From IMG/VR virus record IMGVR_UViG_3300020421_000047, positions 1 to 42,189 of that record: DNA of 42,189 nucleotides. One strand, given 5' to 3'. Source of the stretch: a virus. Position numbers and translations under genes: made by a program. The stretch's first letter is position 1; each line of letters begins with the position of its first letter. The notes beneath the pieces were generated by a model that was not told where the DNA came from, made no database searches, and saw only the letters and a list, made by a program, of their open reading frames with translations. Below, piece after piece: positions 8,586 to 42,041 of the stretch.

Positions 8586-9854
8586 ATGTCAGCAATAGAT
8601 CCATCATTATACGAAGAAATAGTAATAGAGTCACCAAGTGGTAAATCTGTTGATATCACTCAGGGTGTCGTCATGATTGATTACTATGAGGATTTATTTT
8701 CACCTACAATTACTGCGAAATTGCAAGTAGTTAATATGGGTTATGCCATAGCAGGTGATGATGGAGAATTGCAGACAATTTACAATGGACTTCCTTTGAG
8801 GGGTGGAGAAAAGGTTATTTTGAAGATAAAACCAAACAGTACTAGCAATATAAAATTAGATTTTAACTTTTTTGTTTCAAGTATTAGTAATGTTATAGTG
8901 AAAAATAAAACAGAATCATTTACTTTAAACTTGATTTCACCAACTGCAATAGCAAATGAAACTTCTAGGGTGGGTAAAAAATATCCATCATCTACTAAAA
9001 TATCTGATTCTGTAAAAGATATATTTGATAATTATTTAACTAGTGATAAGGATATACAGTGTGATTTAACTCAAAATGTATATGGTTTTATAGGTAATAT
9101 GAGAAAACCATTTACTGTTTTATTTTGGTTAGCATCAAAATCTGTTCCAGAGGCATCTGAAGCAGGTTCTACTGCTGGATATCTTTTTTATGAAACTAAA
9201 TCAAAATTTGCTTTTAGATCAATTGATAGTCTTATAGATTCAGACTCAGTAGCTGTATATAATTATAATGAGATAATAGAAAGTGGTCCTAGTCAAGATT
9301 TTAAAATACTTAAATATAATACTTCTTTAAATGAAGATGTTTTAGGGAAGCTACAGAGAGGTGCTTATAGTAGTTATCGAATATTTTTTGATCCTTTAAC
9401 CTTTGAATATACAGATCCAACTAAAGGAACATTTACTCAAGAACAGTATAAAGGTAAGTCTTCAAGTTTAGGTAAGGAAGTTTCGTTGCCTAATAATCTT
9501 GGTGAGACTCCAAGTAGATATATTACTGCTATACTGGATAGGGGAACTATGGAAAAAAATGCATCTAAGAAAGAAAATGCAGATCCCTTTATTACACAAT
9601 CTCAAAGTATGATGAGATATAATTCTATATTTTCTCAAACTCTTCGTATGACAATTCCGTTAAATAGTAATCTAGAAGCTGGTAATTTGATTGAGTGTAA
9701 GTTTGCACTTGCAGATGATAATCAGAAGGATATTGCTAAAGAAGATAAAGAGCAAAGTGGTCTATATATGATTAAAGAATTATGCCATCACTTTGATACG
9801 ATGGGATCATATACATCATTAACTCTAATTAAAGATACATTCGGATCTAAGTAA
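8586..9854 (+). CDS. gp27: gp27-like baseplate hub protein
   Basis: A 422-residue protein consistent with T4-type gp27, the trimeric hub ring under the tail tube (391 residues in T4). It opens with a beta-rich tail-hub region (YEEIVIESPSGKSVDITQGV, then MIDYYEDLFSPTITAKLQVV), typical of hub domains. Further motifs are VLFWLASKSVPEAS with GYLFYETKSKF (the membrane-side domain of hub proteins) and a C-terminal RMTIPLNSNLEAGNLIECKF and SGLYMIKELCHHFD segment that recurs in gp27/gpD-like hubs. Its stop overlaps the start of the gp5-like gene by one base, as expected for partners of one hub complex. The family call is based on pattern and context. Confidence 0.72.
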   Translation: MSAIDPSLYEEIVIESPSGKSVDITQGVVMIDYYEDLFSPTITAKLQVVNMGYAIAGDDGELQTIYNGLPLRGGEKVILKIKPNSTSNIKLDFNFFVSSISNVIVKNKTESFTLNLISPTAIANETSRVGKKYPSSTKISDSVKDIFDNYLTSDKDIQCDLTQNVYGFIGNMRKPFTVLFWLASKSVPEASEAGSTAGYLFYETKSKFAFRSIDSLIDSDSVAVYNYNEIIESGPSQDFKILKYNTSLNEDVLGKLQRGAYSSYRIFFDPLTFEYTDPTKGTFTQEQYKGKSSSLGKEVSLPNNLGETPSRYITAILDRGTMEKNASKKENADPFITQSQSMMRYNSIFSQTLRMTIPLNSNLEAGNLIECKFALADDNQKDIAKEDKEQSGLYMIKELCHHFDTMGSYTSLTLIKDTFGSK

Positions 9855-12073: not shown

Positions 12074-12081
12074 AATAAATA
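12074..12081 (+). promoter_or_regulatory. Late promoter octamer before the spike-like gene
   Basis: AATAAATA ending 20 bases before the ATG of the 177-residue gene, in a 28-base intergenic gap, with a purine-rich AAGGTAAGG just downstream that can serve as ribosome-binding site. Confidence 0.55.
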
Positions 12082-12101
12082 GAAAGGTAAGGTATTAGAA
12101 T

Positions 12102-12635
12102 ATGACAAAACAACCAAGTTGGCAAAAAAGACAGGTTGATTCTTTTGGTGATTTTAAGATTGAATATGGAAATCCTTCAAGTCATTTAGGTGGACCTGCT
12201 GTTTTCAGTATGGTTGGTAATGGTGCTGGTGGAACTGCTAAACTTGGATTGAGAGAAAGTGGAACTTTTGATATTATGGTCGATCAGACTGTAAAGATTA
12301 CTGGTGCTGCTAATAATCAGAGACCTGATGGATATAATGGTGTTGAAATTGTCTCAATGGAAGGTGGAGTTGCTATTACTTGCCAGAAAGGAACTCTTAA
12401 ATTAATTGCTGCAAATATAGAACTTGTTTCTGGTAGTGACATACAATTTAAAGCAACTGGGAAAATTACTAACGATGCTGATCATGTTCATTTTTTCGTA
12501 AAAGATTTAGATGTAGATCCTGGTAAGAGATTTATGGGTAACACTAAAAAAGGTGATATTGTTGTTAGAGATGCTGGATTCTTGCACAAATGTTATAAGG
12601 GTACAGATGTAAAAGATCATAGAAGAGCTAACTAA
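12102..12635 (+). CDS. Beta-rich virion protein, possible gp5-type spike tip
   Basis: A 177-residue protein with alternating short strands: AKLGLRESGTFDIMVDQTVKITGA, then GVEIVSMEGGVAITCQKG, TLKLIAANIELVSGSDIQFKATGKI. This regular pattern of ~8-residue strands is like the triple-stranded beta-helix that forms the C-terminal needle of gp5/VgrG spikes. The C-terminal part contains Asp/His residues (DADHVHFFVKDLD; RDAGFLHKCYKGTDVKDH). Since the gp5-like protein upstream has no obvious needle of its own, this separate subunit could cap the hub; that is inference. It overlaps the following fibre gene by one base (TAATG). Confidence 0.6.
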   Translation: MTKQPSWQKRQVDSFGDFKIEYGNPSSHLGGPAVFSMVGNGAGGTAKLGLRESGTFDIMVDQTVKITGAANNQRPDGYNGVEIVSMEGGVAITCQKGTLKLIAANIELVSGSDIQFKATGKITNDADHVHFFVKDLDVDPGKRFMGNTKKGDIVVRDAGFLHKCYKGTDVKDHRRAN

Positions 12636-15600
12636 TGACCGAAGAAACAAATTTTTCAGGAATAAATGATGGTGATAATTTCGGTGTCAGTAATGTTGCC
12701 GAATTTTATAATGACGTTCATGTTTATGGAAAATTATATGCTGATTTAGTTGGTGGGTTAAGTGGAGATGGTAGTCAAGGATTAACTGTAGAAAGTTTAA
12801 TTGTTAATAATAATGCTGTTTTTAATAGTGATGTATCCATAAAAGGTCTTCTTGATACAGATTATCTTACAGTTTTTCAGAGATTAGATGTTGGTGCTGG
12901 TGGAACAGTTTTTACTGCTATATCTACTACTAATGGAAGGAATGGTCAGGGACAAACAGGAGGAAGGGTTGGTATAGGTAGTACACAACCAGATGCTTTA
13001 TTTCAAGTTGGAGAGAAACTTACTTCTCTTATTGTTACTGATAGTGGTAATGTTGGCTTGGGTTCTACGACACCTGGAGCACGTTTCCAAGTTGGTTCTG
13101 AATGTTTAATTGTTAATACTGATCCTTGTTCAGTTGGAATAGGAACAACTTTACCTGCACAAAAATTCCAAGTTAAATCTGGTACACAAGGTGCAGTTAT
13201 AAGTGATGCTGGACAAGTTGGTGTAAGAACCTCTATGTTCGAGGGGACAGAAGTCTTTAAAGTAAATTCAAAAGATAATTCATTTGTTATTACTGATACT
13301 GGTAATGTTGGTATTGGTAGTTTAGATCCTACTGCAGTTCCTGGTTATAATCCAAGTCAAGATGGTATAATAAAATTAAATGTAGAGGGATCAGTTAAGA
13401 TTGATCGAAATATAATTGACTCTGCAGATTCTCCAGGTGTAAATGGATATTATTTGAATAGAGATGGGAATGGTATCCGTTGGGTACAAGCATCTCCAAT
13501 CTCCTTAGATGGAATGTATGTTCAGGATGAAGGTGCTGACTTACCTGTAAATGGAACAGCACAATTATTCCAGTGGTTGAATTTTGTACAATTAGATAGT
13601 CAGGGTCTTGGAGTAGATACTTTACTTCCAATACCAGATCCAGCAAACCCAACTGCTATTGCAAAGATTCAAACACAGGATCTATGGGGTCATACTACTA
13701 GTGCTAATGATTCTCCAATCTATAGGATGACTAAGGTTGGTATTAAAAATAATAGTCCTAGCACAGAATTAGATGTAACTGGGGAAGTTCATGTAACTGG
13801 TAATGTTGATTTTGATTCTCAATTAAATGTTGATGGTGAAACATTCTTAAATGCTGCTTTAGATGTTGATGGTCTTACTACCTTTAATAATACTACTGAT
13901 GCAACATCAACTACAAGTGCATCTGTTCAATTGGATGGTGGTCTAGGAATAGTAAAACAAATTTATATTGGTGGAATTGCAAGAGTACAGGATTCAACTG
14001 ATTCTTCAAGTTGTACAACTGGTGCTTTAACGGTTGCTGGTGGTGTAGGTATTTCTAAGAATTTAAATATTTGTGGTGAACAAAAGATTACTTCAGCAAC
14101 AGAATCTACAAACTGTACTACAGGTGCTCTAGTAGTTACTGGTGGTGTAGGTATTTCTAAGAATTTAAATATTTGTGGTGATGTAGATATTTACGGTACA
14201 ACACAGTCAGTAGATAATAATAGTGGTGCTTTAGTTGTTGAAGGTGGTGTAGGAATTGAGAAGAATTTAAATGTAGGACAGAATACAAAACTAACGGGTA
14301 CTTTAGAGTTAGAAAGTAAAATAATTGATAAGTTTAATAATAATGGTGTTGGTATCTGTAAGACAGATTATAGATTATCTTCTTTTGATGTATCTGGTGT
14401 TGGTGCTGGTGTATCTTGGAGACCACCTGGCGTTCAAACTAAGAAGACTATATGGGTTACTAAGAATGGATGTGATACTAATAGTGGATTATTAGAAGGT
14501 GATGCAAAATATACTATAGCTGCTGCAGCAGGAGTAGCACAAATGGGCGATACGATTAAAGTTCGTTCTGGTGTTTATTATGAGAACAACCCAATTGGAT
14601 TAAGAACTGATGTTGCAATTTCAGGTGAAGATTTGAGATTAGTTACTCTAGTGCCTGAGAACACAAATAAGGATTTCTTCCACGTTAGAAATGGTTGTTT
14701 AGTTGAGAATGTTAGTTTCAAAGGATCTGCTGGAACAGAAACACTTCATCATGGTTTAGCTGCAGTTGCCTTCCCACCTACCGATGCTGCTGATCAAGCA
14801 GTTACAGGATATATTGAACTTGGTCCATCTAACGAAGGTCCTAGAGGAAGATATCAAAGTCCTTATGTTAGAAACTGTACTAACTTTATGACTGGTAGTA
14901 TTGGAATGAGGATTGATGGAAACCACGTAGGTGCTGCTTATACTGGAACGAATAATCTAGGACAGGATCTAAAGAGTATGGTTTGTGATGCCTTCACTCA
15001 ATATAATGAAGCAGGTATTGGTGTTTCAATTACTAACAAAGGATATGCTCAGTTAGTTTCTATCTTTACTATTGGTTGTGAGAAAGCAATCTATTGTGAT
15101 AGTGGTGGACAGTGTGATCTTACAAACTCTAACTCATCATTCGGTAAGTTTGGATTAGTTGCTGATGGTACTAGTGGCGTTGAGTTTGATGGAACTTTAG
15201 ACACTAAGATGGAAGCTGAGGCTGATAAGATTGTTGTTACAAATTGCCAAGATCAAAGCAATAATAATAGAACTCCTTTTGATGGTCAGGGTGCATACTT
15301 CCATTTGGATATGGCTGATTACCCAGATACAATCTCAACTGCATCTATAACTGCACCGATGCAAACTATTAGATCTATTGTAGTTGCTAATGGTGGTAAT
15401 CCTGGTGATTATTCTGCATCTGCACCTCCTCTTGTTACTGCTACTCTTCCACAAGGACCAGAAGCGATTATTGCTGAGTTCTCACCAAACGTAAGTGCTG
15501 CTGGAACGATCACTTCTGTTGATGTTATTGCTAGTGGTAGAAACTTCTTACCTACACAGAATATTGTAATGAGTATATCTGGTAGTGGTAATGCTCAGTT

Positions 15601-16016: not shown

Positions 16017-17009
16017 ATGGCAATAGCACCAGTAAATAAGTTTATTAATATTGCCGTTCCTGTTGCACCAGGCGTACAGAAACTTTATGAAGTTCCTACA
16101 GGAACTTCTGCTCTATTATTGTATGCACAAGTATCTAATGTTGCTGTTGGAACCACTTATCCTACAGCAACATTTTGGCAAAGAAGAACTCAGAGAAGTA
16201 CTGGTAGTGAAAGAGATGTAAGAATTATAAAGGAAGCAGAGATACCACCACAGGACGCATTAATAATGGTGGATGGTAGAATTGTATTGGAAAAAACTCC
16301 TATTGTAGTTGATAGTTTATACATTCGTGGAGCTCAGCAAGGTGTTGGTATTATTACTGATGTTCAATATGATGAACCATCAGGAATTGCTACAGTTCAA
16401 ACTCAGATAAAGCACGGATTTAATGCTGGTGATCAGATTAGTATGGGTGGAATGTATTTCACTTGCCCAAGTTATTCTGGTATAACAACTAATATTTTCC
16501 CAGATCCTCAGAGATCTTATACTGTGGATACCGTTGATGGTAATGTTGGAACATCTAAGACATTTTCAATTGATATTGGTGGTGCTAGTGGAAATGAACA
16601 CGTTTATAGTACAGCAATTCATAGATTTGTTAGAGCAGTTCCTCAGTGTATAGAGGTAGTTTCTAGTTCAAGTGTAGCAGTAGGAACAAAGTTTAGTGTA
16701 AGTACTGCAACTTATACTGGATCAACTGGAGAAATAACTTTAAATATTGGAAATAATGGTTTATTAAATGGAGATACAATTAAGATTGCAGATAATTCTA
16801 TAATAATGACTTGTACTATGGATAATCATTATAGTGAACATTCTTATCCTAGAGCAACAGATCCAGCATCTAATACTGCATTAACTCTTGCTGTTGCTGT
16901 TGCAAATGAATCAGTTCGAGTAAATGTTGGTAAGTCTTATTCTGGTGGATACGTTGCTCCATTAGAAATGGAACTAATAGCAAGTATCCTAGAGAATAGT
17001 AATGTCTAA
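16017..17009 (+). CDS. Virion structural protein, fibre cluster
   Basis: A 330-residue, mainly beta protein starting [19 protein letters not shown]. It has no transmembrane segment or enzyme motif. Visible features are an N-terminal region with a [21 protein letters not shown] segment and a [19 protein letters not shown] block, a [13 protein letters not shown] loop, and a C-terminal segment ([17 protein letters not shown], with [13 protein letters not shown] at the end). Proteins of this size recur in the fibre clusters of cyanomyoviruses as structural subunits, but no specific role is recognised. The stop overlaps the start of the collagen-like gene by eight bases, suggesting coupled synthesis, perhaps as its baseplate connector. 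Confidence 0.6.
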
Positions 17010-18783
17010 GAGATACCTAAGTGGAAGGGTTAAGAGATTACCCCAAGATCAATTAAAAGATGATAGGTATAAGTATCTTGGTTTAGATCAAGCAGAACCA
17101 AACCTTGCCGATCCAATTAGTAGTCCTTCTGCTCCTTCTGGTCAACAGTATCAGTTGGTTGCTATTCCTGGTTTTGAGGGTAAGAGATATTGGGTTCCTG
17201 TTGGTGGTGGATTAATTCCAGGTGCGATTAGTGTATATGATGAAGGATCTCTTGTTAGTGGTGCTAGTAGTATTACTCAACTTAATTTTGTTGGTGCAGC
17301 AGTAACAGCACAAGTAGATGTTATGAATCCTTCGGGACATCCAGGCATCGCTGCAACAATTACAGTTGTACCTGTTACTATTGGTTCTAATCCTCCAGTT
17401 AGTCCTATTCATGGAGAATTATGGTGGGAAGATGATATTGGAGATTTATGTATTTACTATGATGATGGTGATACTAGTCAGTGGGTTACTGTAGTTGCTA
17501 GTGGTAACGGTGGTGGTCCTACTGGTCCTGCTGGTCCTCCAGGTCCAACTGGAATAACTGGTCCTTCAGGTAATCCTGGACCTACTGGTCCTTCAGGTAA
17601 TCCTGGTCCTGCTGGTCCTACAGGTGGTGATGGTCCTACAGGTGGTCCAGGTCCAACAGGTCCAGACGGTCCTCCAGGTCCTGCTGGTGGTCCTCCAGGT
17701 CCAACTGGTCCTACAGGTGATGATGGTCCTCCAGGTCCAACTGGTCCTCCAGGAACTGGTTCTCCAGGTCCTTCTGGTCCTCCAGGTCCAAGTGGTGGTC
17801 CTGGTCCTACAGGTCCTGCTGGTCCTACTGGTCCAGATGGTCCAACTGGTCCAACTGGTCCTAGTGGTGGTCCTCCTGGACCTCCAGGTAATGACGGTCC
17901 TCCAGGTCCAAGTGGTGGAGATGGTCCTGCTGGTCCAAGTGGTTCACCTGGTCCTCCAGGTCCTAGTGGTGGTCCTCCAGGTCCAAGTGGTGGTCCTGGT
18001 CCTGCTGGTCCTCCAGGTCCAGATGGTCCAAGTGGTCCTCCAGGTCCTACAGGTTCTGCTGGTGCAATACCTGCTGGTGTTGTTGTTATGTGGTCTGGTG
18101 CTCAGAATGCTATTCCGACTGGATGGGTAATTTGTGACGGTAACAATAGCACACCAGATTTAAGAGATAAATTTGTTGTTGGTGCTGGTAGTAACTATGC
18201 TGTAGATAATAGTGGTGGTAGTGCTGATGCTGTAGTTGTATCTCACAGTCACGGTGGATCTGCTTCTATTAGTGGTGGAGGTGCTCATACTCACTCATTC
18301 TCTGCTTCTGATTCTCATACTCACTCATTCTCAGGTTCAGATTCATTCTCTGCTTCTGGTTCTCACTCTCACTCTTTCTCAGGATCTGCTTCTCACGGAC
18401 ACTCCTTAAGTTTAAGTGACTCTGCTCACCAACACACATCTGCTATTCCAGCGATGAATACTGTTGCTGGTAATTCAGGTTCACAAAGTATTTGGGGTAG
18501 TGTTACTAACTCTCCAACTTGGGGTGCAACTGCTAATGTTAGTGGTTCTGCTAATTCTGCAACAGTTAGTATTTCAGGTTCTACAAGTAGCAATAGTGTA
18601 AGTGTTTCTGGATCAGTTTCAATATCAGGAAATACTGGTAGTGGAACTGCAAGTGTATCTGGTACAACTGGATCTGGTGGTAATAGTGTAAGTGGAACTA
18701 TTACTGTAAATTCTGCAGGTGTTACAGGAACGAATAAGAATCTTCCTCCTTATTATGCATTATGTTACATTATGAAGTCATAA
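17002..18783 (+). CDS. Collagen-like fibre with tail-collar domain and HxH tip
   Basis: A 593-residue fibre. Residues 1-165 form a head domain ending in an [21 protein letters not shown]-like motif. A Gly-X-Y tract spans about 170-353 (bases 17509-18065), mostly GPT, GPA, GPP and GPS triplets with GG and GP interruptions. A phage tail-collar fold follows ([33 protein letters not shown]). Then come six His-x-His motifs at residues 415, 429, 439, 455, 465 and 476 inside Ser-rich repeats, and a final [14 protein letters not shown] strand, the standard collar ending. HxH rows bind iron in the T4 gp37 needle, so a metal-bound tip is plausible. It probably trimerises through collagen and collar parts. 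Confidence 0.82.
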
Positions 18784-18791
18784 AATAAATA
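18784..18791 (+). promoter_or_regulatory. Late promoter octamer before collagen-like fibre 2
   Basis: AATAAATA ending 20 bases before the ATG at 18812, in the 28-base gap after the collar fibre. An AGAGGTAT ribosome-binding site follows at about 18794-18801. Confidence 0.6.
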
Positions 18792-18811
18792 AAGAGGTAT
18801 ATTAATACAGT

Positions 18812-20356
18812 ATGTCAAGAATTGATTTTCCAGCTAATCCTAATGTAGGTCAAGATTATACCTACAATAATTCCGTTTGGAGATGGGATGGATACGTTTG
18901 GAGAAGAATTCCAGATCCAGGTGCTCCTGGTCCTACTGGTCCTGCTGGTGCTCCAGGTTTAACTGGACCTGCTGGTCCTGATGGTCCAACTGGTCCTGCT
19001 GGTCCTCCAGGTCCTAGTGGTGGTCCTCCAGGTCCAACTGGTCCTGCTGGTGATGATGGTGCTCCAGGTCCTCAAGGTCCTCCAGGTATTGGTGGTCCAA
19101 CTGGTCCTACAGGTCCTGCTGGTACTCCAGGTCCTCCTGGTCCTGTAGGTCCTTCAAATCCAGGTCCAACTGGTCCCACAGGTCCAACTGGTCCCTCAGG
19201 TCCTGAAGGTCCTGCAGGTCCACCAGGTCCAGGTAATAGTGGAACTATTGATAGTGTAAAACAATATAGAACTCCTGGTGTAGAACGGAGTTGTGAAAGT
19301 CCGATCTTTGTAGTTAATAACAATACAATAGGTATTGGATCGACAAGTAACGCTTACGGAAATAGATTTGCTCAGAATGATGATCCTACTACTGCTAATG
19401 GTGGCAGTTGGACTGTATGTGATGGAGATTTATGGTATGATATGGATTCTGGTGCTGGTGGTGGACCTGGTCCTGCTGGTCCTCCAGGTCCATCTGGTCC
19501 AGCAGGTCCTCCAGGTCCAGCAGGTCCTCCTGGATCAGGTGGTGGTGCAAATGTAGAAACATCTGATACTGCACCAAGTAATCCTAGCGATGGTGATCTC
19601 TGGTGGGATTCTGTTAATGGACGATTAAATGTTTATTACCAAGATGCTGATAGTTCACAATGGGTTAGTTCTAATGGTGTAGGTATTGGATCAACTGGTC
19701 CTGCTGGTCCTCCAGGTCCAGGTGGTCCTCCAGGTCCTCCTGGATCTGGTGCTTCATCAGATAAGATAGAAGAGGGTAATAGCCATGTAGAAGTTATTGA
19801 TACTGGAGTTGGTTTAGGTACTGTTTTTGTTAATACAGAGGGTACTGATCGTTGGGAATTTACTCATCAAGGTCATCTTCTTCCAATAGCACATGAACAA
19901 TATGATATAGGTTCAGCAGATCAAAAAGTTAGACATTTATTCTTATCAGATAACAGTATAAAATTTGTTAGTGCTGCTAGTACAGTTAATTCATTAGGAA
20001 TATACACAGGTACTGATAAACTAACTTGGACTGGATCTTTTGGTAATATGAGTATAGGTGGGCATCTTATTCCCACCGATAATGCACAGTATGATCTAGG
20101 TAATGCAGAATATAAGATTAGACACTTATTCTTATCAGATAATAGTTTAAAATTTGTAGGTGCTGATGATGTAGTACGTGCGGTTGGTATTACTAATGGT
20201 AATCTAACCTATATGGGTAATCAATTGTTAACAGTTCAACTCGATAGTCCTCAAGCTGGGCATATTTTAGAGTATAATGGTACAGCATGGGCGAATAAAG
20301 TTAATAGTGGTTCTGCACCAGCATTCCAAACAAAAAATTGGAATATGCCCTTCTAA
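18812..20356 (+). CDS. Collagen-like fibre protein 2
   Basis: A 514-residue fibre. It opens with the FPANP ... W-W-D-G-Y-V-W signature shared, in variant form, with the starts of the 373-, 704- and 625-residue fibres. Collagen-like tracts lie at bases ~18919-19235, 19461-19545 and 19693-19750. Between the second and third is the copy [20 protein letters not shown] followed by SSQWV. The C-terminal part has two near-identical segments ([21 protein letters not shown] and [21 protein letters not shown]), each a beta-hairpin-like repeat. The end, [10 protein letters not shown], is also found in altered form ([10 protein letters not shown]) on the 181-residue collagen gene. The role is distal fibre or adhesin, inferred from architecture. 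Confidence 0.78.
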
Positions 20357-20359
20357 ATA
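20352..20359 (+). promoter_or_regulatory. Late promoter octamer of duplicated cassette, copy 1
   Basis: TCTAAATA overlapping the stop codon of the preceding fibre gene and ending 21 bases before the next ATG. The surrounding 17 bases recur exactly at the octamer at 24584-24591. Confidence 0.65.
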
Positions 20360-20380
20360 GTAAACAGGTAATTAGTAATT

Positions 20381-20803
20381 ATGGCAGCAACAGTATATAA
20401 CGGAGTATTACAGGGTACTGGATCAATTCATACACAAACTCTTTATACCAACAGTACTGGTAAAAATGTAAGGATAGTGTTTAATTTCTTTGAGGTAGGA
20501 AATACTCATCCTGGTGAACTTGCAATATATTTCGGTCCATCATCTAATCCTAATCATAATGGTGGACAAGACCTTGATACGGTTTTTGTAAGTGCCACAT
20601 CAAGTTATCGTGCAGGTAAACATCTTTCAATTTTCAGGAATGATAATAATACAGTAAATAATGCATATGCTTCTTATCCCAGTTCTTTTCCATTAGAAAT
20701 GATGATAGCTGATGGATCAAAAATTAGTGTAAAAATTCCTGCACAAATCGATCAAAATACTAATGCTCTCTCATATAATTTTGTAGCTATAACGGAAGAT
20801 TAA
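20381..20803 (+). CDS. Small fibre-cluster protein, duplicated family, copy 1
   Basis: A 140-residue beta-rich protein, MAATVYNGVLQGTGSIHTQT. It shares its start, a central AGKHLS stretch, the LEMMIADGSKIS segment and the end (LSYNFVAITED) with the 120-residue protein at 24613-24975 ([28 protein letters not shown]). The promoters and leaders of both are also alike, so this is a gene duplication. The Y-T-N-x-T-G-x-N-V-R pattern near the start resembles small jelly-roll or tip-like domains that sit on fibres, but no family is recognised. It is followed four bases later by a collagen-like gene, and the same order is seen at copy 2. Confidence 0.62.
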   Translation: MAATVYNGVLQGTGSIHTQTLYTNSTGKNVRIVFNFFEVGNTHPGELAIYFGPSSNPNHNGGQDLDTVFVSATSSYRAGKHLSIFRNDNNTVNNAYASYPSSFPLEMMIADGSKISVKIPAQIDQNTNALSYNFVAITED

Positions 20804-20807
20804 TAAT

Positions 20808-21929
20808 ATGGCAGTAAATTTTCCAAATAGTCCTTCAAATAACGACACCCACACCGAGAACGGTTATACATGGAAGTGGGATGGAACTACTTGGATAATT
20901 CAATCTATTGCTCCTCCAGGTCCCACAGGTCCTAGTGGTCCTACAGGTCCTTCAGGTTCTGATGGTTCTGATGGAAGTGATGGTGGTCCTGGTCCTGCTG
21001 GTCCTCCAGGTCCTTCAGTTACTGGTCCTCCAGGTCCCTCAGGTCCTCCTGGTCCACAGGGTACTGGTAGTGGTGATGCTATAGGAACAATTACAGCATG
21101 GTCTGGGGATGCATCTAATATACCAAGTGAATATCAATTATGTGATGGTTCTACACCAGTTACGACTGCATTACAACTGATTGTTGGGGTAGGTAACGGT
21201 GTTCCTGATTTAAGCAATAGATTTATTGTTGGAACGGGTGGTATGTTTGCTAATAAAACTTTTGCTGGAACTTATGGTGTTGCTACTGCACATCCTAATT
21301 ACTATGCTTTATGTTACATAGTCAAACATAGTGCTACTCCAAGTGGTCCTCCAGGTCCAGCAGGTCCTCCAGGCTCAGGTGGTGGTGCTAGTGTAACTAC
21401 TGATGATACTCCTCCAACTTCACCTAGTGATGGTGATCTCTGGTGGGATTCTCAGAATGGACGATTAAATGTTTATTATCAAGATGTTGATAGTTCTCAG
21501 TGGGTTGATGCTTCGGGTAGAGGTGTATCAGTTACACAAACTACTGGAACATTTAATGTAACACAACAAAGTTGTCAAAATTGTCAAGTTAATGCTGGAG
21601 TGTGGGTGAAAACTGGTAATATACTTCATGTTGATTTTAGTATTCAACATAATGGTGGAAGTGCTGGTGATACTAATCTACGTTGGGGTGGGCAAACTCA
21701 ACATCTTACAATAAATGATTCATCATTACATCCTGTAGTTGATTCAACCATACACTGGGATAGGAGATTTCATGATGTACCTCCTGGTAATTTAACTAGC
21801 ACTCAAGGAATATGGAATGGTAGTGCGGCTGTTAGTGCTTCTGGTGGAATATATAATTTTACGGGTTTAGCAGCTGGACCAGGACAATATGGAAAATATT
21901 ACTTTAGTGGTAGTTGGAGGGTAGCATAA
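20808..21929 (+). CDS. Collagen-like fibre protein 3 with collar fold
   Basis: A 373-residue fibre starting [20 protein letters not shown]. After the W-K-W-D-G motif comes a Gly-X-Y tract (bases ~20914-21070; GPT, GPS, GPP and GSD triplets). A shortened collar fold follows (IGTITAWSGDASNIPSEYQLCDG, VPDLSNRFIVGTGG, and NYYALCYIVKHS). A second small GPP tract precedes a [20 protein letters not shown] motif. The C-terminal ~115 residues (SVTQTTGTFNVTQQSC, CQVNAGVWVKTGN) look like a small beta-sandwich adhesin domain with two Cys pairs, ending YYFSGSWRVA. The collar here lacks the His-rich insertion of the 593-residue protein. Its stop overlaps the next ATG by one base. Confidence 0.76.
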   Translation: MAVNFPNSPSNNDTHTENGYTWKWDGTTWIIQSIAPPGPTGPSGPTGPSGSDGSDGSDGGPGPAGPPGPSVTGPPGPSGPPGPQGTGSGDAIGTITAWSGDASNIPSEYQLCDGSTPVTTALQLIVGVGNGVPDLSNRFIVGTGGMFANKTFAGTYGVATAHPNYYALCYIVKHSATPSGPPGPAGPPGSGGGASVTTDDTPPTSPSDGDLWWDSQNGRLNVYYQDVDSSQWVDASGRGVSVTQTTGTFNVTQQSCQNCQVNAGVWVKTGNILHVDFSIQHNGGSAGDTNLRWGGQTQHLTINDSSLHPVVDSTIHWDRRFHDVPPGNLTSTQGIWNGSAAVSASGGIYNFTGLAAGPGQYGKYYFSGSWRVA

Positions 21930-24043
21930 TGGCAATAGATTTTCCTACAAGTCCTAGTACAAACGATTCTCATACTCATAATGGGTTGACATGGAAGTAT
22001 GATGGCACATCTTGGGTTTTACAGACAACTATTACTGCTGGAGCAACTACTTATACTGACTTAACAGATACTCCTGCTAGTATGGGAGGTGCTGGAGAAT
22101 TTGTTAAAGTTAATGCTGCTGGAAATGCTTTAGAATTTACACCTTCTCCAACAACTACAACTATTAGGTGGGGAAAGAATAATAATACTGGTAGTGCTGA
22201 TTATACAGAATTTAATAGTGGTGGGGCAGGTAAAACATATCAATATACTGGTATGAGTAATGTAGTTAATGGTAATCTTTGGGGTGGATCACATAGAACA
22301 ACATTAAATGGTGGTGCTGGTGGTGATACTCGTCATTTCTTTGCATTAAACACAGGTGCAGTAACTACATGGACTATCGGTGTTGATTCTACTAGTACTA
22401 CTACAAGTAGTGGTCCTAGACTTTGGACTTCACCTGATGGGCAGAATTGGACTATGCATACTAGTGGTGCATCAATAGGATATCCTACACCAACATATTC
22501 TGTATCTGCTGCTCAGATTTGTATTTGTAGTATGGGTCAGAGTACAGATTTAACTTTTACTGTTGGATCTACTGCGACATATAGTAGTAGTGGTTCTTTT
22601 ATTACATTAGCTGATACACCTGCAAATTATACTTCCAGTAGTAATAAGTATCTAAAAGTAAATAACGGTGCAACTGCTGTAGAATTTGGAGATCTTCCTT
22701 CATTAGGATTACCTATAGTTAATGTTAAAGATTTTGGTGCAGTTCCAGGTGCTAATGGTGTAACAAATAAAGCTGGTATCGAATCAGCAATTAATTCATT
22801 AGCAGCTACAGGAGGATTGGTTTATATTCCTACAGGAAGTTATTCTATAACTGGTACTATATTAATAGATCAAGGTGTTATGGGTGATGGTGGTGGTATA
22901 AGTATCATCGGTCCTACTCAGAACTATAGGATTAGTGCTGCTGATGGTGAAGGAGCTTGTTTGGTTTCTACTGATCCTATTAGTGATATATTCAAAGTAA
23001 ATAATGTAAGAAATGTAACTTTTGCTAATTTATCATTTGATCATACAGATGGTGCTCCTAGAACTGATGGTGCTGCTGTTCATTTTTATTCTAATGTAAA
23101 TACTCAACAGATTAGAATGGATAGGATTTATATCCGAAAACAATTTGGTGGTATTAAAGTAGACGGACATTCAATTGGAACATTTAGAGATATAGAGATT
23201 AGAGATATTGCAGTTGACGCTGGATCTTATGGAATGTTATTTTCTGCTTCTGCTGGTGGATCTGAAAGAGTTGATCAGGTAAGATGTGAAAATGTTATTA
23301 TTGATGGTGTAGTTGATGGAGGTCCACATCCAACTGCAAATGGATTATGGGTTAAAGATTTTGTAAATTCAATATGGTTCCTTAATTGTGTTGTTCTTAG
23401 ATGTAATAAAGGATTCTTAATGGATTCAACTGTTCCTAGTGGAGCAACAGGTAATCCTGGTTCATTCTTTAGAATAAATGATTGTGATTTTGATACAAAT
23501 AATTCATATGGTATTGAGATTGCTGGTGGTAGTTTTATTTGGATTAATAACCCATACATAAGTAGTAATCTTAAGCATGGACTTTATGTTAATAGTACTT
23601 TTACTGGTGTTTTAAGAGTAAATGCTGCTGATTGTAGAGGTAATGGTGAACATGGAATGTGGATTCGTTCTACTAATCATAGAAAGATCTTTATAAGAGA
23701 TTCGCAATGCTCTAATAATGGTACGGTTTCAACTAATAATTATGATGGTCTTCATATATACGATGATAATGGTGTAGATCAATCTGATATAATGATTGAT
23801 GGTGGACAGTATGGTGGAGATATAATGGGAACACCTGATCCTGGTAGTAATAATATGACTACTACACCTCAGAGATATGGAATTAATTTTACTAATAATA
23901 CAAAATATAAAAGGATCATTATTAATAATGTAGATTGTTCTAGTAATAGAACAGGATCAATTCAATTTAATGTTGGTAATGGAATTGATAATATGATTCA
24001 TAATGTTATTCCATATCATGGATCACACTCAGGTGCTCACTAA
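21929..24043 (+). CDS. Beta-helix fibre or tailspike (pectate-lyase-type)
   Basis: A 704-residue protein. ATG 21929 ([10 protein letters not shown]) is chosen over the TTG 15 bases upstream because it overlaps the previous stop by one base and aligns with the other fibre starts. It has the common W-K-Y-D-G head. Two ~30-residue fibre repeats follow ([19 protein letters not shown] and [19 protein letters not shown]). From ~265 a pectate-lyase-3-like right-handed beta-helix starts: [36 protein letters not shown]. Many Asn/Gly ladders follow to ~690. Such folds are common in tailspikes that cleave host polysaccharide, but catalytic residues cannot be assigned. It probably binds or trims host glycans. 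Confidence 0.75.
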
Positions 24044-24588
24044 TGGCAGTTAAGATACGAAAAGGTGGTAGTTGGGTAACTATAGTAGGTAATGGACCTC
24101 CAGGTCCAGCAGGTCCTACAGGTCCAACTGGTCCTGCTGGTGCAGACGGTGCAGATGGAAATGATGGTGGAGCAGGTCCTCCAGGTCCAACTGGTCCCAC
24201 AGGTCCAACTGGTCCTGTTGGTCCTACAGGTGGATCGGGTGGTTCAGGTCCTCCAGGTCCCACAGGTCCTGCTGGAAATGATGGAGCAGATGGAAGTAAT
24301 GGTCCTGCTGGTGCAACTGGTCCCACAGGTCCAACTGGTCCTGTTGGTCCACCAGGTCCAACTGGTCCTTCTGGTCCCCAAGGTGTTGCTGGACTAGATA
24401 TTGGCGTATCTCCTCCAACTGGTCCTTCAACTGCTGGTGACTTATGGTGGGAATCTGATACAGGTCATCTATATGTCTATTATAATGATACTAATAGTAC
24501 TCAGTGGGTATCAGTTTCACAAGGACCTGCTGGAGCTCCTGGTGGTTCTGGGACATTTCAAACTGGGGATTGGCATATGCCCCTCTAA
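24043..24588 (+). CDS. Short collagen-like fibre protein 4
   Basis: A 181-residue protein that is mostly collagen: a 16-residue start ([16 protein letters not shown]), a Gly-X-Y tract to about residue 118 (bases 24094-24395, with GPT, GPA, GAD and GND triplets), then a [20 protein letters not shown] motif followed by a short GPAGAPGG stretch and the [10 protein letters not shown] ending. The ending matches the C-terminus of collagen fibre 2 ([10 protein letters not shown]). It begins one base inside the beta-helix gene (TAATG). The lack of a dedicated tip domain suggests a stalk or linker subunit. It precedes the second copy of the duplicated cassette. Confidence 0.74.
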
Positions 24589-24591
24589 ATA
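24584..24591 (+). promoter_or_regulatory. Late promoter octamer of duplicated cassette, copy 2
   Basis: TCTAAATA overlapping the preceding stop codon and ending 21 bases before the ATG at 24613. Bases 24584-24600 are identical to 20352-20368 of copy 1. Confidence 0.65.
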
Positions 24592-24612
24592 GTAAACAGG
24601 AATTAGGATATT

Positions 24613-24975
24613 ATGGCAGCAACAGTTTTAACAGGAAATTTATCAGGAAATCAATCATTTACCTATACTAATAATACAGGTGGTAATGTTAGGTTTATAA
24701 CCGAATATTTTAATGCAGGTGTTAGTGCATCAAACAATTACGTAGGGACATTTGGTTTTGGTAACGGTACAACAAGTGGAACTAGTTGGGTGCAATGGGA
24801 TCTCTTTGATGGATATTATGCTGGTAAACATATTTCACCAATAACATCAGTAGGTAATCCTTTTCCAAATGAACTTATGTTAGCTGATGGTGATAGAGTA
24901 ACTTGGGTTGTTCAAAATGTAACATTTGGTAGAAAACCCTCATATAATTTTTTAGTTATACCAGAGAACGCATAA
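24613..24975 (+). CDS. Small fibre-cluster protein, duplicated family, copy 2
   Basis: A 120-residue paralogue of the 140-residue protein at 20381. It keeps MAAT at the start, the NNTGGNVRF segment (NSTGKNVRI in the other), AGKHIS, and the [10 protein letters not shown] end. The middle is shortened relative to copy 1. It is beta-rich with no enzyme motif, and its function is unknown. The order late promoter, small protein, collagen-like fibre is repeated from 20352-21929, so both products probably serve matched fibres. It is followed after one base by the 625-residue fibre. Confidence 0.62.
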
Positions 24976-24976
24976 T

Positions 24977-26854
24977 ATGGCAGCATTCGATTTTCCAAAC
25001 AGTCCATCCCTTAATGATACCCATACAGAAAATGGGGTAATTTGGAAGTGGAATGGATATGCTTGGGATCGAGTTCCAAGTAGTGGTCCGCAAGGTGCTC
25101 CTGGTCCTACAGGTCCAGCAGGTCCTACAGGTCCATCAGGTCCTACAGGTGGAGATGGTCCTCCAGGTCCAGGTGGTGGAACTGGTACTCCAGGTCCAGC
25201 AGGTCCTCCAGGTCCTCCTGGAAATGATGGTGCTGATGGTTCTGATGGTGGAACTGGTACTCCAGGTCCAACTGGTCCCACAGGTCCAACTGGTCCAACT
25301 GGTCCTGCAGGAGGTACGGGTGGAGATGGTCCTACAGGTCCAGCAGGTCCTCCAGGTCCTCAAGGTAATCCAGGTCCAACTGGTCCTACAGGTTCAAGAA
25401 ATTTTAATATAACAAATAGTGGATCTGGTTCTTATTGTGTTGATACTGTATGTAATAATCCAACAATAAATTTAATAAGAGGATTTAGTTATGTTTTTAC
25501 TGTAAATGCGAGTGGTCATCCATTCTGGATTAAAACATCACAAACTACTGGAACAGGTAATCAATATAATACAGGAGTAACAGGTAACGGTACTCAATCA
25601 GGAACTATATTATGGACTATTCCTGCTTCTGCACCAAATACACTTTATTATATCTGTGAGTACCATAGTGCCATGAAAGGTACTATTTCTATATCAGATT
25701 TTGGTCCTGCTGGACCTCCAGGTCCTCCAGGTCCAACTGGTCCTACAGGTCCTTCAGGTTCTGACGGTTCTGATGGTGGAAGTGGTCCTCCAGGTCCTCC
25801 AGGTTCTGATGGTGATGATGGTGGAAGTGGTCCTGCTGGTCCTCCTGGACCTCCAGGTCCAAGTGGAACTGGTCCTGCTGGTCCTCCAGGTCCTCCAGGT
25901 GCTGACGGAAATGACTCAACAACACCAGGACCTCCAGGTCCTCCAGGTTCTGATGGTGATGATGGTGGAAGTGGTCCTGCTGGTCCTCCTGGACCTCCAG
26001 GTGCTGACGGAAATGACTCAACAACACCAGGACCTCCAGGTCCTCCAGGTTCTGATGGTTCTGATGGGGGAAGTGGTCCTCCAGGTCCAGGTGGTCCTCC
26101 AGGTCCTCCAGGTCCAGGTGGAACTGGTCCAAATGGTCCTCCAGGTCCTCCAGGTCCAGGTGGTGGAAGTGGTCCTAGTGGTCCTCCAGGACCTCCAGGT
26201 CCTACAGGTCCTCCAGGTTCAGGCGGAACAGCAAATACTGATCCAGCATTTAGCATATATGTAAGGAATACTCAAACAACTCCATCAACTATATCAGTTA
26301 CTCTTGATACTACTGATTATGATACTTGGTTAGTTTTCGTTACTTCTGGTGGTGGAGGAGCTGGTGGTGGTTCTTCCAGTGGAAACTCTGGTGGTGGAGG
26401 AGGCGGTGGCGGTACAGCCATACGTAAATATTCTGCTGCAGAAATGGGTAATGGTCAGTGTACTTTATTTGTTGGTCAAGGTGGTGCTGCTGGATCTGGT
26501 GGAGGTAATGGATCTTCTGGACAGTATTCTCAGTTCTATCCAAACTCAAGTCAGTATGCTATAACTGCCTATCCTGGTCAAGGTGGTAGTGGTGGTAATA
26601 ACGGTGCTCTTGTTGCTGGTGGTGGAGGAGGAGTTGGATATGGTGATATAAATTCCTTTGGTGGTGAAGGAACTCCTGGTGCTGGTGGAGAAACTGGTAG
26701 AGGTGGAGAAACTTATTGGGGTGGTGGTCACAACTGGACTCCTGGTGGAGGTGGAAGAGGAGTTCAGGGTGGTGCTAATCCTATAGGAATAAATGATGGA
26801 AAACCAGGATGTATTGTAATTTTTGGATACAAGAAGAGTAAATTTACAGTTTAA
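24977..26854 (+). CDS. Collagen-like fibre 5 with cupredoxin-like and Gly-rich domains
   Basis: A 625-residue fibre. The common head ([15 protein letters not shown], then WKWNGYAW) leads into collagen tract 1 (bases ~25085-25395). Residues ~141-241 interrupt the collagen with a cupredoxin-like domain: [17 protein letters not shown], then a strand pair, then [15 protein letters not shown]. Its His181, Cys227, His230 and Met233 fit the type 1 copper pattern His...Cys-x2-His-x2-Met. Collagen tract 2 follows (25704-26225) with internal DNA repeats. The C-terminal ~200 residues are a Gly-rich beta domain ([14 protein letters not shown] ... [19 protein letters not shown] ... CIVIFGYKK), as on many phage fibre tips. 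Copper binding is predicted, not shown. Confidence 0.8.
25892..26059 (+). repeat. 66-base perfect direct repeats in collagen tract, 102-base offset
   Basis: Bases 25892-25957 recur exactly at 25994-26059. The unit encodes a [13 protein letters not shown]-type collagen block. A further near-copy of the [18 protein letters not shown] block lies 144 bases before its second occurrence (about 25802 and 25946). This is a recent in-frame duplication of 34 residues inside the fibre stalk. Confidence 0.85.
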
Positions 26855-39482: not shown

Positions 39483-39511
39483 TTGACACTGTTCGAGATT
39501 CCTGTTATACT
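39483..39511 (+). promoter_or_regulatory. Sigma70-like promoter with near-leaderless start
   Basis: TTGACA (39483-39488), a 17-base spacer and TATACT (39506-39511) preceded by TGT (extended -10). Start is predicted at 39517-39519, exactly at the ATG (39518), so the transcript would have essentially no leader. Confidence 0.8.
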
Positions 39512-39517
39512 TTTATT

Positions 39518-40099
39518 ATGAAATTTACTCTTGCTATAGGAAACCCTCCTTATGGTGTAGGAGGGAATCTTGCTATAAAGATATTAAATAAAACTTCTGA
39601 GATCACAGATGATATTAGGTTTGTATTACCTACATCTATGAGGAAACCTTCTTGTCAGAATAAGATCAAGTCATATCTTCATTGTGAAGTTGATGATGAT
39701 CTAGATGCTGCTACTTTTCCTGGTGGAATAAGTGCAGTAAAACAGTATTGGAAAGTAAAAAACACATCGAGATTTGCAAAAGGGGTGAACGAGATTCCTA
39801 TGCACCGAGAACATCCCGATTTTGAATTTCTAGATTACAAAGATAGATTTGAGGCAGATGTTTTTATTGGTGAGTATGGATGTGGTCCTAGTGGAGTAGT
39901 AAAGACTGAGAATTTTACACACTATGCTAAAGGACATCATTTTCTAAATGTTAAATCACCTGAAGTAATTAAGAATCTACTAGAGTTTGCTCCTAAGTTT
40001 AGAGAAGTAGCAACAGTAACTAATGGTCGATACCATTTTGGTAAGAATGATTTAATTAGTACTTATATTAAATGTTTAGATGAAAAAGAACAAGCATAA
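39518..40099 (+). CDS. DNA adenine methyltransferase, NPPY catalytic half
   Basis: A 193-residue protein beginning almost at the catalytic motif: KFTLAIGNPPYG (motif IV of N6-adenine DNA methyltransferases, residues 2-13). The following GGNLAIKILNKTSEIT, IRFVLPTSMRKPSCQNKI and DAATFPGGISAVKQYWKV are the usual downstream parts of this Eco57I/type I-like enzyme family. The rest (residues ~90-193) would be the DNA-recognition end, with a GEYGCGPSGVV motif. It lacks the SAM-binding motif I. That motif lies in the next gene, which this gene overlaps by 20 bases, so the two polypeptides are probably made together. Target sequence unknown. Sigma70-like promoter directly upstream. Confidence 0.78.
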   Translation: MKFTLAIGNPPYGVGGNLAIKILNKTSEITDDIRFVLPTSMRKPSCQNKIKSYLHCEVDDDLDAATFPGGISAVKQYWKVKNTSRFAKGVNEIPMHREHPDFEFLDYKDRFEADVFIGEYGCGPSGVVKTENFTHYAKGHHFLNVKSPEVIKNLLEFAPKFREVATVTNGRYHFGKNDLISTYIKCLDEKEQA

Positions 40100-40478
40100 T
40101 ATAGAGACAGGATCTAGTATTGAAAGATCTGATGAAAGAATAAAAGAAACTCAAGAGGTATTCACACCTCGTGAGTTGGTAGAATTAATGATAGATGAGA
40201 TTGATGTTTCTTTATTGAAAGATTCTAGCAGCAAATTTATTGATAATTGTGCTGGTAGTGGCAATTTCTTAATTGGACTAAAGGAACGTCTCTGTTTGTA
40301 TCATAATGAGAAGCACGTTCTAAACCACATGCTTTACGCAGTAGAATTGCTAGAGGACAACCATAAGGAACTCTGTGGTCGTTTGGGTGTGACAACTCAT
40401 CATCCGCACTATGTTTGTGCAGATGCCTTAGAATATGACTATAGTTTTGGTGAACCTATAGGAGTGTTGAAATTTTAA
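40080..40478 (+). CDS. DNA adenine methyltransferase, SAM-binding half
   Basis: A 132-residue protein with the SAM-binding motifs of the same enzyme type: FTPRELVELMID (motif X), FIDNCAGSGNFLIGL (motif I), YAVELLEDN (motif II) and CADALEYDY (motif III). It stops at SFGEPIGVLKF, precisely where the family continues into the FTLAIGNPPY strand that opens the upstream gene. Its ATG lies 20 bases inside that gene in another frame, so coupled translation is likely. Together the two give all core motifs in swapped order. The Asn in DNCAGSG replaces the usual Pro of DPxCGSG, so activity may be altered. Confidence 0.78.
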   Translation: MKKNKHNIETGSSIERSDERIKETQEVFTPRELVELMIDEIDVSLLKDSSSKFIDNCAGSGNFLIGLKERLCLYHNEKHVLNHMLYAVELLEDNHKELCGRLGVTTHHPHYVCADALEYDYSFGEPIGVLKF

Positions 40479-40535
40479 TTTGTATAACTAACTCTGTTAG
40501 GGTTGTAGGACAAGCTTTATAATTTTTTAAGAACC

Positions 40536-40562
40536 AAGGGGGATTGACACCCTCTTTTTTTG
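40536..40562 (+). terminator. Terminator after the methyltransferase genes
   Basis: A seven-base stem with one G-U pair (AAGGGGG with CCCTCTT, 40536-40542 and 40550-40556), a 7-base loop and a run of T. The loop contains the TTGACA -35 of the next promoter. Confidence 0.8.
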
Positions 40563-40571
40563 TGTTATAGT
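40544..40571 (+). promoter_or_regulatory. Sigma70-like promoter nested in a terminator
   Basis: TTGACA (40544-40549), 16-base spacer, TATAGT (40566-40571) preceded by TGT. The -35 lies in the terminator loop. Start near 40578, 20 bases before the ATG of the 63-residue gene. Confidence 0.7.
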
Positions 40572-40597
40572 AGGATTGTCGTTACATATACAAACAC

Positions 40598-40789
40598 ATG
40601 ACACAACAAATGAATCCTCTCTGTGAGGCAGAGTTTATTACAGACCTATACTTACATCACGCAGTTCAAAGTGTTGATGCTAGACTTGGTGAGGGTTATG
40701 CAAAAAAGAATCCTCAATTAGTATCTACTATGGTTTCTCTTACTGCAACAGAACACCAAAATGCTATTGATAGAAATTTGAGGGACTGA
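40598..40789 (+). CDS. Small protein of unknown function
   Basis: A 63-residue gene flanked by its own promoter and its own terminator (stop at 40787-40789, terminator from 40806), so it is a single-gene transcription unit. The sequence MTQQMNPLCEAEFITDLYLHH ... is mostly helical with two amphipathic stretches (residues ~5-28 and ~42-62). No motif or family is recognised. Its position between methyltransferase and helicase genes would fit a small accessory or early host-takeover protein, which is inference only. No clear ribosome-binding site is present. Confidence 0.65.
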   Translation: MTQQMNPLCEAEFITDLYLHHAVQSVDARLGEGYAKKNPQLVSTMVSLTATEHQNAIDRNLRD

Positions 40790-40805
40790 TCTCTAACTGT
40801 CACAA

Positions 40806-40828
40806 GACCCCCGAAAGGGGGTTTTTTT
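40806..40828 (+). terminator. Terminator of the 63-residue gene
   Basis: Perfect six-base stem (ACCCCC and GGGGGT) closed by a GAAA tetraloop (807-822 in the 40-kb numbering), followed by seven T. Very strong. Confidence 0.9.
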
Positions 40829-40829
40829 G

Positions 40830-40838
40830 TGCTATAAT
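40830..40838 (+). promoter_or_regulatory. Extended -10 promoter for the helicase gene
   Basis: TGCTATAAT (TATAAT at 40833-40838), directly after the terminator T run; no good -35 at the right distance. Start near 40845, about 15 bases before the ATG. Confidence 0.65.
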
Positions 40839-40859
40839 ATATTCAACTGAGAAACATTA

Positions 40860-42041
40860 ATGCCATTACGTCCACACCAAAATGATGCTCTGGATGCTAT
40901 GGCAAACCATACTAAGGGGCAGATCATCGTTCCTACTGGCGGTGGTAAAACTATGTGTATGATTGATGATGCCAAAAGGTTATTCAATACACAAGAGGTT
41001 TCAACTATTGTTGTAGTTGCTCCACGCATCCTGTTAGCAGAGCAACTATGTTCTGAGTTCTTGGAAACAGGAGAGTTTAATGATGTAAGAGTTATGCACG
41101 TTCATAGTGGTGAAACAGAGCATTTCTCTTCAACTAAAGTTGATGATATTAGATACCATAACTTCCTATGTTATGAATCTAATCAGTTAATCTTTACCAC
41201 ATACCATTCATTACATAGAGTACAAGAAAGTAATATTGTAGTGGATACCGTTTACTTTGATGAGGCACACAATAGTGTTAATAGGAACTTCTTCCCTTCT
41301 ACTAAATTTTTTGGAACTGGAGGTGCTAGTAGGTGCTTCTTCTTTACTGCTACTCCTAAGCATAGCCTTACTCAATTCAAGGCAGGAATGAATGATAGGG
41401 AGGTGTATGGTGATGTAATCATTAATGTACCAGCACCTAAGTTGGTTGATGAAGGTTACATACTACCACCTAAAGTTGAGGTGTATAAGAGTCGTTTACT
41501 TAGAAAAGATGAGATCTATTCTGAAGTAGAATCTGAGCATATGATTGGTGCTATTGATAGATTAGAAGTAGATAAGGTTCTTATCTGTGCTAAGTCTACC
41601 AAACAGATTATTGGTCTTCTATCTCAATCCGACTTCTGCTATGAGTTGAATGTGCGTGGTTATTCTTGGATGACTATCACATCAAGGACAGGTGCTATTA
41701 TCAACGGTAAGAAGGTAGGTAGAGATGAGTTCTTTAAAACTCTTAATGCTTGGGGTAAGGATGATGAGAAGAAGTTTGTGGTATTGCATCACAGCATCCT
41801 ATCAGAAGGTATAAATGTTAAAGGATTAGAGGCAGCGTTGTTTATGCGTAATATGGATTATATTACTATCTCTCAAACGATTGGTAGAGTAATTCGTTTA
41901 GGTAATGTAAACAAAACACATGGCAAAGTATGTGTTCCTGTGTATAATAATGTAGGAATCTCTACTGCCCGAAAGGTTGAAGCAGTTGTTGATACTGTAT
42001 TCAATCAGGGTCAACCAGCAATTTCAGTTGTAACACGATGA
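40860..42041 (+). CDS. SF2 DEAH-box helicase-like protein
   Basis: A 393-residue ATP-dependent helicase of the DEAD/DEAH restriction-type (Res subunit) group. Motifs run in order: RPHQ (residues 4-7), Walker A PTGGGKT (25-31), Ia VVAPRILLAEQ (52-62), Walker B YFDEAH with DEAH at 134-137, III FFTATP (162-166), and VI QTIGRVIR (339-346). It lacks a nuclease domain and any visible specificity domain, and it lacks the N-terminal part typical of UvsW, so its role (DNA repair, replication or recombination) is open. It is the first gene of a new transcription unit, four genes downstream of the fibre cluster. The next gene overlaps its stop (ATGA). Confidence 0.85.
   Translation: MPLRPHQNDALDAMANHTKGQIIVPTGGGKTMCMIDDAKRLFNTQEVSTIVVVAPRILLAEQLCSEFLETGEFNDVRVMHVHSGETEHFSSTKVDDIRYHNFLCYESNQLIFTTYHSLHRVQESNIVVDTVYFDEAHNSVNRNFFPSTKFFGTGGASRCFFFTATPKHSLTQFKAGMNDREVYGDVIINVPAPKLVDEGYILPPKVEVYKSRLLRKDEIYSEVESEHMIGAIDRLEVDKVLICAKSTKQIIGLLSQSDFCYELNVRGYSWMTITSRTGAIINGKKVGRDEFFKTLNAWGKDDEKKFVVLHHSILSEGINVKGLEAALFMRNMDYITISQTIGRVIRLGNVNKTHGKVCVPVYNNVGISTARKVEAVVDTVFNQGQPAISVVTR

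Follow-up and report, generated by a model that had tools for sequence, protein, structure and literature searches.

The window, as the whole stretch of DNA analysed here will be called, is a virus record of 42,189 bases close to the Prochlorococcus phage P-SSM2, a marine cyanophage. It carries two overlapping genes, A and B, which together have the motifs of a single methyltransferase. The features of this pair listed below lie on the plus strand. A (39518..40099, 193 residues) is the putative catalytic and DNA-recognition half, running from motif IV to the C-terminus. B (40080..40478, 132 residues) is the putative SAM-binding half. The genes share 20 nt (40080..40099), which are read in different frames. 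Protein A starts MKFTLAIGNPPYG, and its motif IV, NPPY, occupies residues 9-12 (39542..39553), of which N9 and P11 do not vary among 37 aligned sequences. An earlier sequence-only reading, in which the upstream gene opens at motif IV, was right on this point. Its second claim, motifs X, I, II and III in the downstream gene and an end short of motif IV, is confirmed in B. The motif X core, FTP (residues 28-30, 40161..40169), is invariant in 12 aligned sequences and is followed by motif I, FIDNCAGSGNF (residues 53-63, 40236..40268), motif II, YAVELLEDN (residues 86-94, 40335..40361), and motif III, CADALEYDY (residues 113-121, 40416..40442). The protein then ends in GEPIGVLKF, and the stop precedes motif IV.

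The pair is flanked by a promoter-like site upstream (TTGACA-17-TATACT, 39483..39511, 11/12 matches), which is present in relatives too, and by a terminator-like hairpin 3' of B (40536..40557). In a Pfam scan of the window, the region from the pair to the end of the record yielded a helicase only, with no nuclease beside the pair. The spot between B and the helicase is variable in relatives. P-SSM2 has a 462-aa gene there (L002, 5106-6494), and the window (40479-40860) just an ORF of 63 aa. A and B themselves are set apart at locus L138 by an insertion of about 500 nt (1903-2409). Elsewhere in the window (17002-26854), several tail-region proteins contain long collagen-like G-P-x repeats.

One question is whether A is a whole gene. 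A strong sigma-70-like promoter lies near the gene start in most of 51 distinct stretches upstream of A. This places a promoter close before A in most relatives, which argues that A is complete and that its true start is at motif IV. A longer A with an overlooked N-half is ruled out by this conserved promoter directly 5' of the ATG and by the same start in relatives. The distance from the end of the -10 box to the ATG is 6 nt in the window clade and about 23-27 nt in more distant relatives; given the 6-nt spacing, the A transcript of the window clade may be leaderless.

Both genes also appear to be maintained. Values of dN/dS for A and B are 0.076 and 0.083 between the window and P-SSM2, and 0.076 and 0.084 between the window and a second relative (L020). 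This indicates that purifying selection acts on both, and ratios of about 0.08 rule out a pair of pseudogenes. The P-SSM2 counterparts, PSSM2_036 and PSSM2_037, are adjacent, 98% and 96% identical to the window pair, and annotated as hypothetical. A lies directly upstream of B in 79 of 80 IMG/VR loci (first B scan, the best 80 of 188 relatives), and the 80th stops at a contig end. An assembly fault is ruled out by the adjacent P-SSM2 pair, these 79 loci and A's own promoter.

What if the two frames were nevertheless joined? A programmed frameshift in the 20-nt overlap could fuse A and B into a permuted chain like that of the Aeromonas phage protein PX29 gp083 (see below). Such natural fusions do occur, and the same one-base frame offset separates B from its partner (the motif-IV protein beside it) in 116 of 145 pairs. 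However, B has its own start codon, and at some loci (L138 and the Bellamy type) a gap or a gene separates it from the partner. A frameshift is regarded as very improbable.

The identity of the two halves rests on several comparisons. B matches the Pfam family N6_Mtase with 26.6 bits (cut-off 20.4; E 4.5e-6). No Pfam family scores above its cut-off against A; PF07669 falls below it at 15 bits. In PHROGs, A is phrog_5172 and B is phrog_4376, both listed as 'unknown function'. The NPPY of A has the (D/N/S)PP(Y/F) form required of motif IV in an N6-adenine DNA methyltransferase. The SAM-binding motif I and motif X are both present in B and both absent from A. Against solved chains, the B profile comes nearest to M.BseCI (6e-5), CamA (4e-4) and also type I M subunits. 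A predicted model of A (pLDDT 90.4, pTM 0.78) gave zero Foldseek matches at E<=0.001 when Foldseek was used alone. Its residues 1-193 align with residues 97-410 of M.TaqI (Z 7.2) and 157-577 of CamA (Z 7.1), although a Z of about 7 is not strong by itself and short stretches of rRNA methyltransferases score similarly. The best VIA Z, 7.3, likewise lies inside the range that the tool calls common. The alignments with TaqI, CamA and BseCI span A from the region of motif IV to its end.

The next clue comes from the wider family of B. Scans of IMG/VR (the best 80 of 188 relatives in the first, the best 80 of 94 in the second) and of bacterial and archaeal genomes found stand-alone B proteins in marine phages, a Lak megaphage, Streptococcus, Lactococcus, Corynebacterium, Gordonia, Bacteroidales and others. 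B-related genes are also carried on 71 plasmid records, several of them annotated as N-6 DNA methylase. B is an old stand-alone family that is found in phages and bacteria alike. Among phages, B is constant and its partners differ widely. The partners with motif IV may be Eco57I-type proteins alone, may be fused to helicases or, in actinobacteria, may be split again at motif IV. Neighbours include helicases, T5orf172 (GIY-YIG) domains and small nuclease-like proteins, so that many B-family loci resemble restriction-modification systems.

Motif I is canonical in 200 of 201 stand-alone B proteins. A readable motif-IV partner is present at 176 of the 201 loci and missing at 25; the reference C-halves for this search came mostly from B loci, and other kinds of partner may be missed. 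The partner precedes B in 142 of the 176. No N-half at all, with motif IV falling within the first 25 residues, is seen in 79 partners, and an N-half without canonical motif I in another 91. Together, 170 of 176 partners lack canonical motif I, as scored by a regular expression, and six match the pattern. Four of the six (L147, L150, L170, L211) were set aside since the pattern matched elsewhere than at motif I, and L174 since its match belongs to a neighbouring third gene beside the true partner. This leaves one true exception, gp55 of S-CAM7 0809CC03 (L090), which sits next to a B and has an intact-looking motif I (DPAMGGG). As a control, motif I is kept in all seven relatives of A without a B hit (the phages KIL1, XbC2, Kaldavass, GAP32, ukendt and iGC, plus L256), some of the six phage records being near-copies.

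Perhaps the two proteins simply do different things, B as a SAM-binding regulator and A as a DNA-binding remnant. Such separate roles would suit the many partners that still have an N-half (of the 176, 91 with one that lacks canonical motif I and one that keeps it). What speaks against them is that motif I is missing in the proteins beside B and retained in relatives without B, that the adjacency of A and B is constant and that fused single chains exist in nature. Separate roles are therefore judged unlikely.

Some loci show how varied these arrangements can be. At L124 (167-1914) and L121 (6207-8008), two different motif-IV proteins with similar degenerate N-halves are followed by a single B, and here one B may serve two catalytic subunits. 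Two ACG-2014f isolates have B in a constant place, followed in one by a 691-aa helicase and A (L004, 3265-6834) and in the other by a nuclease-like protein, a methyltransferase and a helicase (L089, 6001-9948). This indicates cassette swapping beside a constant B. In the Lak-B2 megaphage (L093, 1-4414), a helicase, a nuclease-like protein, a methyltransferase with a decayed N-half and B stand in a row. At four actinobacterial loci (L180, L181, L184 and L192, about 8600-12940), a helicase protein ends in a decayed SAM half and motif IV opens a new gene, which at L180 encodes a 345-aa protein starting MSKKFDVVIGNPPYQ. These loci appear to be a separate case, split at the same place.

The link between the two halves is strengthened by natural single-chain fusions. 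The Aeromonas phage proteins PX29 gp083 (415 aa), which starts MRFDYMIANPPY, and phiAS5 ORF215 (417 aa), which starts nearly the same way, both have a B-like domain at the C-terminus. A locus from a Paludibacteraceae MAG (L176) encodes a further single chain with motif IV at about residue 9 and the B domain at 321-445. In a 28-row alignment, the N-part of PX29 gp083 falls on the C-halves of partners and its C-part on B proteins, although the N-part is distant from window A (23% identity). These chains have the same order as the window genes and bear out the view of the sequence-only reading that the pair consists of two complementary halves whose order is swapped, with the split falling between motifs III and IV. 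That reading had also proposed searching relatives for intact, split and permuted forms. All three are seen, together with a fourth in which the N-half is degenerate.

In gamma-class enzymes, the order is X-I-II-III-IV-TRD in one chain. The window has two chains, with the IV-bearing gene first. In beta-class enzymes, motif IV comes first, then the recognition part, X and I-III. The window matches this IV-TRD-X-I-III order by gene order only, whereas the PX29-type relatives have it in a single chain. A predicted model of one PX29-type chain (L096; pLDDT 77.5, pTM 0.68, with weak stretches) matches beta-class enzymes over residues 1 to about 371, at Z 8.5-10.1 (MboIIA 10.1, M.BceJIV 9.9, TTHA0409 9.7, M1.HpyAVI 9.4, CcrM 9.1, EcoP15I Mod 9.0, RsrI 8.9). 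Taken separately, the halves of the same model match gamma-class enzymes, 280-406 aligning with CamA 13-158 and 1-236 with TaqI 97-411. Halves that are gamma-like in a whole chain that is beta-like suggest that gamma-type halves have been placed in beta order.

The C-terminus of B deserves attention of its own. The sequence-only reading took GVLKF (40461..40475) to be the point at which an ancestral enzyme was cut. The comparison replaces this with a conserved tail, since most relatives have G[VIL]E-x-FF at the same place. Across 60 loci, B closes with KFF in 30, QFF in 21, LKF in eight and RFF in one. B therefore ends in FF in 52 of the 60, usually as [LVI]-E-x-F-F, and the window clade is the odd one. 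A terminal [LIV][DE]x[FL][FLMY] marks 144 of 165 phage B proteins, compared with 11 of 935 background ORFs; of the 21 phage tails off the pattern, ten end in GVLKF as in the window. DNA polymerase (gp43) of the same phages has similar-looking tails, NLDSFFS in P-SSM2, NLELFFS in Bellamy, TLESFFG in S-CAM7 and SLESFFT in ACG-2014f, and in T4 the gp43 tail binds the clamp. Bacterial B proteins carry Q[LMT][SDE][LFM]F in 13 of 37 cases, many of the 13 being streptococcal near-relatives, against 0 of 269 other ORFs of similar size; QL[SD]LF is the bacterial clamp-binding motif. Tails of these kinds serve clamp binding in the replisomes of T4-type phages and of bacteria. Most relatives probably have a B with such a C-terminal clamp peptide, through which it would contact the clamp. 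The window tail, GVLKF, may have lost this contact.

How did the pair arise? The sequence-only reading proposed a tandem duplication followed by loss of the outer halves, with the cut at a KF shared by both proteins. The octamer TGAAATTT is indeed literally present at the start of A and at the end of B in the window, but carries no weight, and KF/TGAAATTT as a duplication scar is ruled out, as just 7 of 60 loci have it in common, against 52 in which B ends in FF. The resemblance that had been seen between the DNA 3' of B and the start of A proves to be at chance level (local score 19.0 against a shuffle mean of 16.4, with 357 of 2000 shuffles scoring as high). In addition, close relatives of A retain degenerate N-halves unlike B, and B is itself an old stand-alone family. 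Nevertheless, the prevailing partner-then-B order and the homology of bacterial partner N-halves to B fit a duplication. A recent event in the window lineage is quite unlikely, and this form of the proposal is not supported; an old duplication is possible.

The close relatives point to another route. At loci L050, L124 and L151, the C-half of the partner is 71, 71 and 75% identical to window A, yet about 60 residues still precede motif IV, with GDP[TS]G[LV]H[ST]L replacing motif I and the same B alongside. Since relatives this similar retain a degenerate N-half, window A most likely lost its own, stepwise, by decay and then deletion, while B supplied one. In a tree of the C-halves (47 of 85 rows left after thinning), the truncated forms require three changes and are placed among forms with a degenerate N-half, the intact KIL1-type lying outside (95/90). 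However, support at the fork that splits off the first degenerate group is 87/79, which falls short of strong. Decayed N-halves that are diverse in other respects share a conserved GDP[ST]G[LV]H[ST]L (e.g., L050, 7259-7470). This suggests a retained role over simple decay.

The origin of B itself could lie in an old duplication with complementary decay. Alternatively, recruitment from an unrelated methyltransferase of the gamma class or HsdM type may have supplied B, and the N-half tree does not separate the two. Recruitment would agree with the nearest solved relatives of the B profile (M.BseCI, CamA and type I M subunits) and with the constancy of phage B against widely differing partners. 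On the other hand, the N-halves of bacterial partners (FLDPxxKSGVFLRE) and the B profile match each other strongly (hhalign probability 99.2, E 1e-19). These N-halves form one clade (97) near B, and B and the partner N-halves fall on the same side of most intact enzymes with a support of 86, in a tree that has few columns and in which two proteins counted as intact (L239 and L178) fall among B proteins. Recruitment is a serious possibility, if short of an even chance.

The explanation that best fits these observations, and that is quite probable, is that A and B make up one N6-adenine DNA methyltransferase assembled in trans, with B serving partners whose SAM half had decayed and, in the window lineage, has since been deleted. 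It draws on the complementary motifs, the alignment of the A model with TaqI and CamA, the fusions, purifying selection, the promoter and the intermediates. Motif X and the SAM-binding motifs I-III would come from B, motif IV (NPPY) and target recognition from A. Joined, the two half-sheets would form a single Rossmann-type domain, with gamma-like halves but the beta-class order when read A then B. We infer that A binds B so that the SAM site of B faces the NPPY of A, and that together they methylate adenine, with A choosing the target site. In evolutionary terms, a stand-alone SAM-binding B would have worked with catalytic proteins in which the SAM half was decaying; in the window lineage, deletion of that remnant would then have put motif IV at the start of A. 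Among most relatives, B would probably bring its replication-clamp peptide along as well. A possible role for the window pair is that of an orphan methylase marking the phage DNA. One observation that counts against this trans-assembled enzyme is that 91 partners keep a degenerate N-half, and it is hard to see how B would enter their fold.

A broader proposal, whose chances are judged a little short of even, is that B typifies a widespread and exchangeable SAM-donor subunit, tethered to the clamp in most relatives, which, in phages and bacteria alike, would work in trans for many different catalytic and recognition subunits, in some cases for two per B (L121 and L124). The states intact, degenerate N-half, truncated or split and fused in new order would then be a natural path from gamma to beta without a recent tandem duplication. 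In this way, the relatives suggest how the parts of such enzymes get reordered during evolution. The work also suggests functions for PHROG families 4376 and 5172, which are listed as unknown, and the clamp may link phage DNA methylation to the replication fork.

The gamma-class enzymes (M.TaqI, CamA, M.BseCI and the Eco57I-type) resemble both halves in motifs and fold, A corresponding to TaqI from residue 97 and B to BseCI and CamA, but they are one chain, whereas the window has two with the IV-TRD gene first. The likeness to the beta class (MboIIA, CcrM, RsrI and type III Mod) lies in gene order and in the predicted fold of the fusion from end to end; the window pair, however, is split in two genes. 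PX29 gp083, phiAS5 ORF215 and L176 share the order and the B-type domain and differ as fused chains with an N-part distant from A. M.AquI and M.EcoHK31I are natural split methyltransferases in which two gene products also make one enzyme, but they are cytosine-5 enzymes. The type ISP, or helicase-containing, restriction systems LlaGI and LlaBIII recall the relatives of the pair that adjoin nuclease-like and helicase proteins; the subunits of the pair are separate, though, and no nuclease was seen beside the window pair. A literature search, with most subscription journals and REBASE outside its scope, found nothing on the A-B pair or on such a SAM-binding subunit acting in trans. A description of such split enzymes may exist, since a personal communication mentioned in PMC4335053 speaks, without details, of 'a new class of split DNA methyltransferases'.

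The origin of the several circularly permuted orders of methyltransferases is an old question, for which the part of the literature consulted offers a model of duplication with truncation (PMC5944983). There, M.BssHII and M.Alw26I are described as circularly permuted C5 methyltransferases, and duplication with bidirectional truncation is proposed for them. Unlike the window pair, they are permuted in the variable region near the TRD, are single chains and act on another base (PMC5944983). The lineages described here show other intermediates that are still living, namely a separate SAM half, the decay and loss of the old one and newly ordered fusions. Methyltransferases that are split, and others that are permuted, are already known kinds. 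What the literature search, within the scope given above, did not turn up is a separate SAM-binding half with many partners, a split that falls before motif IV and natural fusions in beta order.
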